Shown here piece after piece: positions 29,994-59,905 of a stretch of DNA of 64,000 nt. A program made the position numbers and the translations under genes. The DNA is from Zygaena filipendulae (Eukaryota; Arthropoda; Insecta; Lepidoptera; Zygaenidae): positions 62,001 through 126,000 of the forward strand of contig CAJRBF020000001.1 in NCBI GenBank assembly GCA_907165275.2, written 5' to 3'. The notes under the pieces were generated by a model. It was not told the DNA's origin, did no database searches, and worked only from the letters and a program-made list of their open reading frames with translations. Each line of letters starts with the position of its first letter. Positions within the stretch are counted from its first letter, which is position 1.

Positions 29994-30362
29994 TTATACT
30001 TTTTTATTCCAAAATTTCCATAAATATTTTAAACATAAATGACCACAATTAACGGTATTGAAGTTTTGATATCTGTTATAGTTATAAAAAATATCCATAT
30101 TTTTTAAGTATTTCACTAATTCAAATGGTGGTTTTAGATCACCATAACTATCAAAATATTCACAGTAATTATTACATTTTGTATAAGCTACCCAATGTGT
30201 TCCTTAATTTTTTGAATCATCTAAGTTAACGATACCGCATTCAATATTCCTCGGAGTTCTGGGTAGTTCATCTTTCATGTACACACCATTGAAATACGGT
30301 ATATCTGCTGCATACTTTAAAATGTCTACATTGGTCAAAGCACGATTAGGTAGCTTAATTAG
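29994..30362 (-). pseudogene. Adenovirus-type cysteine protease of P1, nonsense mutation
   Basis: Continues in the -1 frame from the slippery site at the end of PLA2. It keeps GTHWVAY (catalytic His), YFDSYG, and NCGHLCLKYLW (catalytic Cys). The codon just before GTHW is TAA where P2 has GAG, which would stop translation before the active site. As in P2 there is no ATG at the start of the conserved region. Confidence 0.85.
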
Positions 30363-30368
30363 TTTTTT
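30359..30368 (-). promoter_or_regulatory. -1 frameshift heptamer A-AAA-AAC followed by TAA, P1
   Basis: In the PLA2 frame the last codons are TCA AAA AAC TAA. The heptamer A AAA AAC matches X XXY YYZ in phase. Slipping back one base leads straight into the protease frame. Same bases and phase as P2 at 57310-57319. Confidence 0.75.
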
Positions 30369-31144: not shown

Positions 31145-31516
31145 CTACTTTCTTACTACTGAGGATTTATCAATCCAGCTGTTTTCGTTGTAAGGTAACC
31201 CTAACCATTTAACGAATAATTTGCTTCCTTTCTTTTTTAAAACTCTTTCAATTAAATACACATCCGGATAATTGGTCTTCTGAAGTTCTTCTTCATAAAA
31301 AGTTCCGAAAATAGGCTGCTTACGCATATCTTCAAGACGGTATGTTTGGGGATTTGTATTATTTACTTTTTTAATAGTAAATAATTCTGTAGACCAGTTA
31401 GGAGTATATCCCTTTTCAAAACAAGTTTTGTATTTGCTGATACGAACACAATCTCCCAGTTTATATTTAGGTTTTTTCAGTATAGATGGAAGCGAGTGTG
31501 ATTTAATAATATTAAG
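31145..31516 (-). pseudogene. P1 integrase, C-terminal part with chromodomain
   Basis: Frame matching residues about 205-315 of the P2 integrase: GDCVRISKYK (SH3-like region), NWSTELF, then a chromodomain (YLIERVLKKKGSKLFVKWLGL, NSWID). It is cut from its catalytic core by the LINE that starts at 31517. Confidence 0.85.
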
Positions 31517-34500
31517 ACAACAGAGATGACCTCTGGCACTAATCTAATTAAGTTATCTGACATGACAAATGATTATTATTGTTTGAAAGGGAGTCCAAAG
31601 AAAAAGCATACTTCAAATGTTCATTGTATTAACCTGGTGCATCAAAATATATATTGTTTGACAGCAGGCAAGCAGCTGGAGCTGGAATTATTCATGAATT
31701 CGGAGAGTATTAGTATTATGTGTATTACAGAACACTGGTTAAGGGGGCATCAGCTCATGTTTAATTTCAGTAATCACCGGGTTGGTAGCTCATTCTGCAG
31801 AGTGAATGCAATACATGGGGGGTCGTTAATATTTATAAATAAAAACCTTAAATTTAAAGAAAGGAAGGATATTGTATCTCTCTCTGTAGAATGTGTAATT
31901 GAGCTTGCCTGTGTACAATTAGAGCAATTCATTGTTGTTTGTGTATATAGACCTCCTTCTGGCGATTACACTTATTTTTCAGAAATTATGGATGTTGTTT
32001 TATGCAAGTTAAGTAATACTGGTAAGAAGTTATTTGTATGTGGAGATTTTAATATTAACATTCTAGAAAAAACATCCTTGTCTTGTAATATTCTAAATTT
32101 ATTCAAATCTCACAATCTTTTAAATTTATTTATGGAGCCTACTAGGATATGCACTACTACGTCAACCTGTTTGGATAATATTTATAGTGATGTAGTTCCC
32201 AAACACAAGAATATTATTAACAAATTAGACTCTGACCACTCTGGTCAGTTAATAAACTTTGAAATAAAAAAAAACAATGAAACTAAAAGGAAAATTAATT
32301 ATGTGCCGGTAACTACTGATCGCTTGGAGCGAATGCGGGTAGAACTGATTAATAACTTATCTTTTACACAGTCAAACTCAGATCCTAATTCCTTATATAA
32401 TTCCTTCTTTCAAACGTTTCATCATCATTATAACTCAATATTTAGTTCCAAGGTGATCACAGTTACCAACAGTCCAGCCTTTAGCGAATGGGCAACAGTA
32501 GGAATACACAAAAGTAGGCAAGTGTTATATGGGTTATACTATGAAAGGCAGTTCAATCATAGTGAAGAGTTTAAAGAGTATGTAAAATCATATTCAAAAA
32601 TTTTCAAATCAGTTTGCATGTTATGTAAGTCCCATTTCATTAGTTCAAAGATCAAAAATAGTAATGATAAAATTAAAGCCACATGGAAAGTAATTAATGA
32701 AGAAACTGGTAAAGCTAAATTTGGTGACACTAACTTTAAGCTATGTGTTAATGGTAAAATCATTCAGTCAGATTTGGAAGTCGCGAATGAGTTTGAAAGC
32801 TTCTTCGCTAAAATACCCGTTTCTTTAACCAGCACTTTAGGCTCTTCCACCCCCGTTGCAGAGTCACTTCTTAAGGAAAATGTTCCAGAATGTTCTAATG
32901 AATTCAGTTTTAGCCATGTAAGTGTATATGATATCTTCAAGGTGTTTAAGACAATAAATCTTAAAAAAACAGCTGATCTGTGGGGGATTTCTGTTACTAT
33001 TATAAGTTCATTAATTGATATTATTGCACTAGATTTAGTTGATATATTTAATAAATGTATAGACTGTGGTGTGTTTCCTGACCAAATGAAATATAGTAAA
33101 ATAACACCTTTGTTTAAAACAGGTAGTACAACAGACCCTACTAACTTTAGACCAATTTCAGTACTACCCACATTTAGTAAAATATTTGAAAAGCTTATAC
33201 TTAGCCAACTACTCGCATACTTTAATAAAAACGACTTGCTGCATCATAAACAGTTCGGTTTTACTCGTGGTCGCTCTACAACTGATGCAGGAATTAAATT
33301 AATTGAAAATATTTTTGAGGCCTGGGAGGAGTCACGTGATGCTTATGGAGTGTTTTGTGATTTATCCAAGGCCTTTGATTGTGTTGAGCATATAACTTTG
33401 GTCAGGAAACTACACTATTACGGAATACGAGGTGTAGCTTTGGATCTTCTTACTTCGTACTTGAGTGATAGGATCCAAAGGGTTGATGTCAACGGAAAAC
33501 GATCACATGGTTCTGCTGTGGTAATGGGAGTACCCCAAGGATCTATATTAGGACCATTCCTGTTCCTTGTTTATATAAATGACTTACCTTATCTAGTGAG
33601 GGACAACCATGAGATAGTATTGTTTGCAGATGATACATCTTTAGTGTTTAAGGTTAATAGACAGCAATCGGCTGTAGACGATGTGAACAATGCTCTCTCT
33701 AAAATAGTACACTGGTTTAATGCTAATAACTTATTACTAAACCGTGATAAAACCAAATGTATAAGATTTGTGACCAAAAATGTTAAACAAGTAAAAACCA
33801 GATTACTGATTAATAATGAGGATTTGGAAATGGTCGATGAAACTGTCTTTCTAGGTATAACATTAGATGCAAAATTACAATGGGGCCCACATATAAAAAA
33901 GTTATCAGGTAGATTAAGCTCGGCGGCTTATGCTGTCAAGAAAATCCGTCAACTTACTGATATTAATACCGCGCGTTTAGTTTATTTTAGTTATTTCCAC
34001 AGCATTATGTCATACGGCATACTGCTGTGGGGTAGTGCCGCGGATATCGATTCTGTATTCGTGTTGCAGAAACGAGCCATTCGCGCAATCTATAAGTTGG
34101 GCCCTCGGGATTCACTGAGAACTAAATTCAGTGAGTTTAAAATAATGACTGTACATTCTCAGTATATATACGAGAATTTATTATATGTTCACAAAAATTT
34201 AGGCAACTTTAAGAAAAACAGTGATCTACATAATCTTAACTTAAGAAATAAAGATAAACTCGTTGTGCCTAAGACTAGGCTCCATAAAATTTCTAAGTCA
34301 TTTAAAGGACAATGTATACGCTTTTACAACAAACTCCCAAACGATGTAATTAATTTGTCAATTAATAAATTCAAGACGCTTATTAAACACAGATTATGCG
34401 ATAAAGCATATTATAGTGTAGTAGACTATTTAAATGATACAGACGTTTGGGAATGAATTGCTCTATCCAATTACAATTTTTTGTTCTCCTAGTTTATAAG

Positions 34501-56590: not shown

Positions 56591-57319
56591 ATGCATGGTG
56601 GTGGACTCGTTAACAATTTAATAAATAACTTACCTTTTGAGATTCATATACCTGGGTATAATTACTGTGGACCAGGAACAAAACTTCAGAAACGTTTACA
56701 AAGAGGTGATCGCGGGGTTAACAAGTTGGACGAAGCCTGCATGCACCACGATATCGCCTACGCCAATAACACAGATTTACCTAATCGTCACAAAGCGGAT
56801 TTACAATTGTTAGACATGGCTAAAAAGAGGTTAGAAGCAAAGGATGCAGGGAAAGGTGAAAAATTGGTCTCATGGCTGGTTAGTAAAGCGATGAAAGCTA
56901 AAGTAAAATCGGGTTGGGGAGTTAAATCATTCAAACATTTTGTCACGAAAATTCGTTCACATGTTAAAAAGCTAAAACCAAAAAACCGTAAAACGCTGAT
57001 AAACCTGTCTTATGCAGCTGCTAAAAGAATGATTCCTCTAGCTCGTCAAATCAAATTACCTCGAGTGATACCAATACCAAAAACCGGAGGAATATTACCA
57101 CTTATCCCAATATTTGCGGGTTTATCAGCTCTAGGCGCTCTGGCGGGAGGAGCGTCTGGAATTGCAAAAACTGTGAATGATTATAAATCTGCTCAAAAGA
57201 ATTTGCAGGAGACAGAGCGTCATAATAAAACCATGGAGGCTATAGCACTGGGAAAAGGCTTATACATAAAGCCTTACAAAAGTGGGAAAGGTTTATACAT
57301 AAAAGCTTCAAAAAACTAA
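56591..57319 (+). CDS. PLA2-like minor capsid protein, P2
   Basis: 242 codons. YNYCGPGTKLQ (Ca loop) and DEACMHHDIAYAN (catalytic His-Asp) give a parvovirus-VP1-type phospholipase A2 domain near residues 22-60. Lys-rich middle, Gly/Ala hydrophobic stretch LIPIFAGLSALGALAGG, Lys/Gly-rich end. In parvoviruses this domain opens the endosome during entry; here a minor capsid protein is inferred. Its last codons form the frameshift site that links it to the protease. Confidence 0.82.
   Translation: MHGGGLVNNLINNLPFEIHIPGYNYCGPGTKLQKRLQRGDRGVNKLDEACMHHDIAYANNTDLPNRHKADLQLLDMAKKRLEAKDAGKGEKLVSWLVSKAMKAKVKSGWGVKSFKHFVTKIRSHVKKLKPKNRKTLINLSYAAAKRMIPLARQIKLPRVIPIPKTGGILPLIPIFAGLSALGALAGGASGIAKTVNDYKSAQKNLQETERHNKTMEAIALGKGLYIKPYKSGKGLYIKASKN
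57310..57319 (+). promoter_or_regulatory. -1 frameshift heptamer A-AAA-AAC with adjacent TAA, P2
   Basis: In-phase with PLA2: TCA AAA AAC TAA. Slippage of one base at A AAA AAC gives CTA ACT ACG CTA and onward, which is exactly the open protease frame. No ATG precedes the conserved protease start. The stimulatory RNA structure, if any, could not be judged by eye. Confidence 0.8.
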
Positions 57320-57684
57320 CTACGCTACCTAATCGTGCTTTGACAAATGTAGACATTTTGAAGTACGCTGCAAATATTCCGCATTTCCGAGGTGTTTACA
57401 TGAAAGATGAATTACCCAGAAGTCCGAGGAAGATTGAATGTGGTATTGTTAACCTAGATGATTCGAAGAATGAGGGAACACATTGGGTAGCATATGCAAA
57501 ACGAAATAATTATTGTGAATACTTTGATAGTTATGGTGATTTGAAACCGCCATTTGAATTAGTGAAGTATTTAAAAAATATGAACATTTTTTATAATTAT
57601 ACAAGATACCAAAAATTTAACACTGTTAATTGTGGTCATTTATGTTTAAAATATTTATGGAAATTTTGGAATAAAAAAGTATAA
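57316..57684 (+). CDS. Adenovirus-type cysteine protease, P2, no ATG
   Basis: About 120 codons read in the -1 frame of PLA2. LPNRALTNVDILKYA, FRGVYMKDELP, ECGIVNLDDS, GTHWVAYAK (His), YFDSYGD (Asp) and NCGHLCLKYLW (Cys) are the C5/Ulp1-type protease pattern. No ATG exists in frame before the conserved region, in P1 either. Hence expression as a frameshift extension of PLA2 is the simplest reading. In Polintons the enzyme is thought to mature virion proteins. Confidence 0.85.
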   Translation, partial: LTTLPNRALTNVDILKYAANIPHFRGVYMKDELPRSPRKIECGIVNLDDSKNEGTHWVAYAKRNNYCEYFDSYGDLKPPFELVKYLKNMNIFYNYTRYQKFNTVNCGHLCLKYLWKFWNKKV

Positions 57685-58694: not shown

Positions 58695-59905
58695 ATATCT
58701 TAGACGTTTTATCTGTTCCATCTTACGACAATTCCGTTGAAGGGATCGAATTCCATTCATATAAACCATATGTAACAAGTTTCAACAGGAATGATGAAAT
58801 ACGCATTCCGATCAACCAACAAGATTTGTACATATTGCCATCAGCGAGCACTTTATACTTGGAAGGACAAGTTGATGTTAAAAAACGAGATACTAAAGAG
58901 CAAGTAAACACTGTAAATTTTACAAATAATTCTCTTCTTTACCTATTTCAAGATATTCGGTATGAGTTAAACGGAGTTGAAATAGATAAAATAAAAAACG
59001 CAGGAATAAGTACTACAATGAAAGCGTTGGTTTCAATGAATGAGAGTGAATCTAAAATGTCAAGAGCCTGGGGCTGGGATATAGGCGGTATTACAAATAC
59101 TCACCGAGGCAGTTTCGCAGTTTCCATTCCCCTCAAAAATATACTTGGCTTCGCTGAAGATTATCAAAAAGTTGTGATCAATTGTCGGCACGAATTGATA
59201 TTGTTACGAAGCAACATAAATTTAAACGCTGTTAAACTTAACAACGATGAGGTTATTGAAGACGTAATTATAAATAAAATAATTTAGCGGGTACCACACG
59301 TACGAGTTTCAGATAGAGAAAAGATTAATCTTCTCAAGTATTTAGAAAAAGACCGACCACTCCAGATTGTATTTAGAAATTGGGATTTGTATGAATATCC
59401 AGCTTTACCTAAAACCACTAAACATACGTGGTCAATAAAAACTGCATCTCAAATAGAAAAACCACGATATGTAATTATTGGATTGCAAACGAACCGAAAG
59501 AACAATGCAAGTTCTGATATGGCGCAGTTCGATCATTGTAACCTAAGTAACGTCAAGGTGTACCTTAACTCAACTTACTTTCCATATGAAAATTTAAATA
59601 TAAACTTTGCAAATGACAGATTTGCTTTAATATACGAGCAATACGCAAGATTTCAACAGTCGTATTATGGAAGGCGAACAGAAGCTTTGCTAAGCCCTAA
59701 GCAATTCAAAGATTTAACGCCATTGTTCGTTATCGATTGCTCCAGACAAATTGACAATTTGAAGTCAGGGCCTGTTGTCGACGTACGCGTTGAACTCGAA
59801 GCAGATTCTGAGATACCTGATCAAACTTCAGCCTACTGTCTTATACTCAACGATTGCATTATCGAGTATAAACCACTCAGCAGCACGGTGAAAAAACTAT
59901 CATGA
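58691..59905 (+). pseudogene. Major capsid protein of P2 (double jelly-roll candidate), one in-frame stop
   Basis: The frame runs 404 codons with a single TAG at 59285-59287, where the pattern of the surrounding IIxRVPHVRVS suggests Trp. Conserved segments include YKPYVTSFNRNDEIRIPI, RAWGWDIGG, WSIKTASQIEKPRYVIIG, NINFANDRFALIYEQYARFQ. Length, position and partner genes match the Polinton MCP. The stop is a single substitution, so decay is recent; readthrough cannot be excluded because P1 lacks this part. Confidence 0.8.

Follow-up and report, generated by a model that had tools for sequence, protein, structure and literature searches.

How a Polinton protease is translated when its gene has no start codon ahead of its conserved part is the question raised by a 64,000-nt stretch of DNA from Zygaena filipendulae (hereafter the window, meaning the whole stretch analyzed), which contains two Polinton copies, P2 on the plus strand and P1 on the minus strand. 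In both copies, the gene for a phospholipase A2 (PLA2)-like protein ends in A AAA AAC TAA, which, judged by its sequence and that of its relatives, is likely to be a programmed -1 ribosomal frameshift site giving a PLA2-protease fusion.

The PLA2-like protein of P2 (242 amino acids; 56591-57319, plus strand, start ATG at 56591) was matched from codon 2 by the Phospholip_A2_4 profile (E = 1.7e-13), and its frame (frame 0) ends TCA AAA AAC TAA. The slippery heptamer lies at 57310-57316 (plus strand) in X XXY YYZ phase relative to the PLA2 frame, with the stop codon directly 3' of it (57317-57319, plus strand), just as the initial annotation had read this junction. Its further claim that P1 shares bases and phase is borne out: the PLA2-like gene of P1 (30359-31087, minus strand) carries the heptamer at 30362-30368 followed by TAA at 30361-30359, and these ten bases (30368-30359, minus strand) are identical to those of P2 at 57310-57319. 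The C-terminus of the P2 protein also includes a short repeat (57251-57304, plus strand; GKGLYIKPYKSGKGLYIK), which is largely kept among the relatives listed and might serve the protease as scaffold, cofactor or cleavage element.

The -1 frame of P2 is open from stop to stop over 57229-57684 (plus strand), and its protease region after the slip runs from 57316 to 57681, with the stop at 57682-57684 (122 codons in the full -1 frame). The 28 codons from the slip site to the first -1-frame ATG (57316-57399, plus strand) are conserved and under purifying selection in that frame, and they supply helix 1 and the greater part of strand 1 in the protease model. The ATG itself (57400-57402, plus strand) is Met29 of the protease, codon 29 after the slip, and is located upstream of the catalytic residues and downstream of conserved fold-forming codons. 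The initial annotation was therefore right that the -1 frame enters a protease; its statement that no ATG precedes the conserved residues stands for the selected region in the window's family, before which none is found, and overlooked the ATG at 57400. According to a structure model, compared with 1NLN, the -1-frame product is a small cysteine protease with a predicted adenain-type (peptidase C5) fold, which we call "adenain-like" because its PF00770 score (16.8 bits) falls under the gathering cut-off of 21.3. H56, Q99 and C106 are invariant in all 65 rows of the protease alignment, as is Met29, and the acid position is D, with N in some relatives; from alignment and general knowledge, we take the His, acid, Gln and Cys to be catalytic. 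In P1, the -1-frame protease (29994-30362, minus strand, end counted by eye) is broken by a premature in-frame TAA, in line with the initial annotation, which had called it dead, and intact relatives of the P1-type protease are present elsewhere in the genome.

A protein search of the 366-Mb genome with the protease, from which all counts are lower bounds, yielded at least 148 matches, mostly near-identical. Seven of them were second fragments of copies already counted, so that the distinct copies number 141, and every junction was read. All 141 carry AAAAAAC followed by TAA; loss of the heptamer in intact copies, which the initial annotation had named as a refuting outcome, was seen in none. 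The full 122-codon -1 frame is retained in 126 of the 141 copies; an upstream -1-frame ATG is absent from 123 of these and present in three, one more ATG-bearing copy is interrupted in this frame, and one copy is unclassed. At least 241 open PLA2 codons together with the full -1 frame occur in 108 copies. The copies form two subfamilies, P2-like and P1-like, the latter matching the junction region of the window at 87%-89% identity. Near-identical copies of the P2-type Polinton number well over 100 and crowd certain contigs (e.g., C30, C31, C42, C47, and C48), and their sequences suggest a recent burst. At one copy (L031/L072), an open frame of 392 codons was considered as a natural fusion and set aside, as it is due to a lost protease stop and not to the junction. 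A distant protease-like match (L161, 1-1051, minus strand) seems, by eye, to have an ATG-initiated Ulp1/adenain-like protease behind a capsid-like open reading frame, presumably of the F54H12.2-like family; it apparently belongs to a different type of element, whose protease has an ATG of its own.

Selection on the junction was assessed by the Nei-Gojobori method between P2 and a single P1-type copy. Constraint on the PLA2 frame is strong (nonsynonymous rate dN 0.043, synonymous rate dS 0.626), and the -1 frame 5' of the heptamer is unconstrained (dN 0.126, dS 0.151). Between the heptamer and Met29, the -1 frame is constrained (dN 0.066, dS 0.441; four changes on 63 nonsynonymous sites and seven on 21 synonymous sites), and the other two frames look unconstrained there (dN/dS values of 0.144/0.221 and 0.165/0.073). 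From Met29 onward, the protease gives dN 0.024 and dS 0.731. At the heptamer, the frame under purifying selection changes from that of PLA2 to the -1 frame, a result that comes from a short stretch and a single comparison and is suggestive alone and strong with the rest of the evidence.

Relatives in protein databases extend this pattern. A search with the PLA2-like protein against 5.8 billion clustered proteins gave 2,039 relatives, and sequence ends were compared for the 120 matches listed. Each of these has KN at its C-terminus, exactly at the end in 115 and followed by one or two extra residues in five. The amino acid preceding KN is always one of S, P, T, Q, L, A, E and K, all codable by NNA (120/120), versus 93/120 and 90/120 NNA-codable residues at the two preceding variable positions; after thinning at 80% identity, the figures are 55/55 versus 40/55 and 41/55. 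The KN end thus looks, from these sequences, as though it follows a nucleotide rule, A AAA AAY, and not a peptide rule. On the protease side, 867 relatives were found, with start positions taken from the 120 matches listed. No start is predicted before the conserved LPxR motif in 53 of the 120, of which 14 have their predicted start inside the helix and 39 at Met29. In all 24 listed relatives with a predicted Met upstream of the site, KKL occurs in the -1 frame, exactly three residues before the conserved LP (two residues in the window). Equal source-contig size suggested 37 likely same-contig PLA2/protease pairs. The PLA2 member ends in KN in all 37, and a protease start before LPxR is absent in 24, follows the heptamer in six, and lies upstream in seven; 22 PLA2 relatives outside the pairing have no protease match. 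In six of the seven upstream-start pairs the -1 register holds: KK starts one base ahead of KN, an arrangement that requires A AAA AA(C/T) and the same relation between the two frames. The pair P0218/P0015 is off the -1 register and was rejected as a probably coincidental pairing. Across the relatives, the sequences point to a constant heptamer and a start codon that is not constant.

Scans of viral contigs yielded one distant contig (taken as L001 and L002), IMG/VR contig IMGVR_UViG_3300046323_000841, whose protease is 37% identical, falls under the Pfam cut-offs of C48 and C5, and adjoins an A32-type ATPase. The upstream protein of L001 ends ..TKKKNPEF, was not recognized as PLA2, and has itself as its sole database match. 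A TAA at 2950-2952, overlapping the start of an A11 run (2951-2961), precedes the opening of the -1 frame; an in-phase A AAA AAC lies at 2956-2962, and there is no -1-frame ATG until the residue equivalent to Met29. L001 appears to have the same layout, which we regard as support and not proof, the A11 run being prone to sequencing error and polymerase slippage. One scan of prokaryote genomes yielded no such contig.

PLA2-like proteins of this kind are thought to be membrane-active at entry, like parvovirus VP1, and to resemble adenovirus pVI in role. We infer that slippage occurs during translation, and would picture its ratio and purpose as follows. Most ribosomes would terminate at TAA and yield the PLA2-like protein; a minority, having shifted one base backward, would read on into the protease and produce the PLA2-protease fusion. 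By analogy with Gag-Pro, the fusion may bring maturation protease into the particle on the core protein, in a dose both small and fixed, and, more speculatively, the PLA2 tail might replace in cis the pVI-derived cofactor of adenain.

Several results weigh against a programmed ribosomal slip. The 141 copies are mostly recent and, since they form two subfamilies, represent about two lineages and not independent events. Positions fixed for one residue (e.g., Gly) also score near 120/120 on the NNA test, and therefore only the comparison with variable positions counts. Relatives other than L001 are known as proteins only, so that ATG, GTG and TTG starts look alike in them, as do AAC and AAT. A start before LPxR is predicted in 67 of the 120 protease matches listed (up to five codons before LPxR in 43, a number exceeding a rough chance estimate, and upstream across the heptamer in 24). 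This is a result that the initial annotation had named beforehand as counting against itself, and its general rule of a missing start has to be given up; some lineages may start the protease independently and retain the slip site as an alternative route or for a different reason. No convincing case emerged for the stem or pseudoknot that the initial annotation proposed to look for in the 60 nt downstream. Minimum-energy folds of P1 and P2 share a predicted hairpin 17-50 nt 3' of the heptamer (57334-57367, plus strand), but z is -1.0 over these 60 nt in both and the hairpin is not significantly better than in shuffles. Over 90 nt, z is -1.06 for P2 (equaled or bettered by 28 of 200 shuffles) and -1.74 for P1 (by 8 of 200), the latter slight and not significant; L001 gives -3.0 over 60 nt but -0.6 over 90 nt. 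The best score in a simple pseudoknot scan was reached by 3/30 (P2), 8/30 (P1) and 10/30 (L001) shuffles, and an Rfam search gave no match. Known stimulators usually lie 6-9 nt from the slip site (PMC3835772), and a hairpin starting 17 nt away counts against this role. What stands of the programmed-frameshift proposal in the initial annotation is carried by the conserved heptamer and phase, the -1-frame selection, the lack of an ATG ahead of the selected region in the window's family and the layout of L001, and what falls is the universal lack of a start.

A further difficulty is that slippage of RNA polymerase on A6, whereby part of the mRNAs would gain one A and encode the same PLA2-protease fusion, would leave identical traces. 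Conservation cannot separate the two because both need A AAA AAY in the same phase, and the window has precisely A6 with a pyrimidine after it, L001 having A11. To our knowledge, such slippage is established for viral RNA polymerases, and A6 is not known as an efficient site for nuclear RNA polymerase II. Potyviruses provide a precedent, slipping at GAAAAAA, where the hexamer favors single insertions, which generally become more frequent with a pyrimidine on the 3' side (PMC5027478). We nonetheless prefer the ribosome because heptamer type, phase and a stop directly after the site make a textbook ribosomal signal, and consider polymerase slippage unlikely. Independent initiation of the protease, at a start codon near the PLA2 stop where one exists and otherwise at a non-AUG codon, by reinitiation or at Met29, with KN and KKL as mere coding overlap, would suit the 67 matches with a predicted start and the invariance of Met29. 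However, starting at Met29 would delete the conserved, selected segment modeled as helix 1 and most of strand 1, and the near-cognate codons just 3' of the site differ (ATT and AAG in P1 versus ACT and ACG in P2). Independent initiation would also leave the NNA rule before KN unexplained and has to contend with the 53 listed matches without a predicted start and the 123 intact copies without an ATG there, and we judge it improbable.

Polintons can be transcribed in the nucleus, and a spliced mRNA could in principle provide the protease start. Splicing would have no need for a conserved heptamer, and its 3' site would need to precede LPNRAL, a region in which, by eye, nothing more than AG in an A-rich, pyrimidine-poor stretch is seen; we hold this to be very unlikely. 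Chance, namely an A-rich coding end that spells the heptamer next to a protease whose start decayed, draws on the frequency of AAAAAAC in the A-rich window (48 versus 41.8 expected), which also led us to drop the scarcity of the heptamer as an argument. AAAAAAC followed by TAA occurs three times versus 1.1 expected, a count matched by 10 of 100 shuffles, and an extra in-phase AAAAAAC within the P2 PLA2 gene (56980-56986) leads to a -1-frame stop after one codon. It is not the heptamer alone that surpasses chance but its conservation among relatives and the change of selected frame. With the heptamer kept in 120 of the 120 matches listed, as deduced from their proteins, and in L001, and with 123 intact copies lacking an upstream ATG, coincidence is extremely improbable.

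The surroundings of the PLA2-like gene are those of a Polinton/Maverick, with neighbors identified by profile search as an A32-type ATPase (Pox_A32 barely over its cut-off, 22.9 versus 22.8), an rve integrase with a chromodomain (a weak Chromo match, 23.1, under the cut-off of 25.1), and a double jelly-roll capsid protein. Long open reading frames beside both copies resemble PolB by eye. The capsid-protein frame of P2 is interrupted by an in-frame TAG (59285-59287, plus strand) followed by CGG. This looks like a private nonsense change and not programmed readthrough, because the 25-base context has a single exact occurrence in the whole genome, the P2 copy itself. Within the integrase region of P1, a 984-codon open frame (31502-34456, plus strand) has, by eye, the endonuclease and reverse transcriptase look of a long interspersed nuclear element and is probably a nested insertion.

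Comparable sites are familiar from other systems. Mouse mammary tumor virus gag-pro uses A AAA AAC. So do all five astroviruses in Recode (PMC3835772). Retroviral Gag-Pro and Gag-Pol and astrovirus sites share this heptamer class, and retroviruses likewise reach a protease from a structural protein, whereas the Polinton is a double-stranded DNA element with an adenain-type cysteine protease, a PLA2-like core protein and no convincing stimulatory pseudoknot. Adenovirus adenain (1NLN) shares fold and catalytic His, Gln and Cys with the Polinton protease; it has its own ATG and a pVI-derived activating cofactor that acts in trans, while the candidate partner in Polintons would be joined in cis. 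Potyvirus P3N-PIPO also involves an A6 run and a fusion into a frame reached by one added A, but by an RNA polymerase mechanism and with unrelated proteins (PMC5027478). Regarding novelty, which the initial annotation had claimed, no description of a PLA2-protease slip or of programmed slippage in Polintons was found in the literature searched, which mostly excluded subscription journals and was available partly as excerpts. The claim is narrowed by a 2024 preprint that, in one sentence and using KnotInFrame, suggests potential Penton isoforms and a Hexon-Adenain "Hexain" by -1 slippage in adintoviruses (PMC11071296). That proposal concerns a related virus group and protease, with Hexon and not a PLA2 core protein as upstream partner, and the excerpts of PMC11071296 show no conservation or selection test. 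The same gene pair as in the window was described as separate CAP and PRO open reading frames in Sf Maverick 1 and 2 of Spodoptera frugiperda, with no mention of a frameshift between them in the excerpts of that article (PMC5803895). The CAP protein P0133 of S. frugiperda shares 78% identity with the window's PLA2-like protein and ends PKN.

Polintons have been considered ancestors of most eukaryotic DNA viruses (PMC7805220). We suggest, tentatively and as somewhat less than probable, that they use Gag-Pro-like recoding in double-stranded DNA virus-like elements: a slip site common to Polintons and distant polinton-like viruses may weld the maturation protease to a membrane-active core protein, one event setting dose, packaging and perhaps a cis-activating peptide, with separate-start lineages being secondary. 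If the conserved slip site is real, it would explain the proteases without a start before their conserved part (53 of the 120 matches listed), and the annotation of PLA2 and protease genes would change. It would also extend to Polintons a mode of translation associated chiefly with RNA viruses and retroviruses, and the site would offer a cheap test of whether these elements are set up for making particles.
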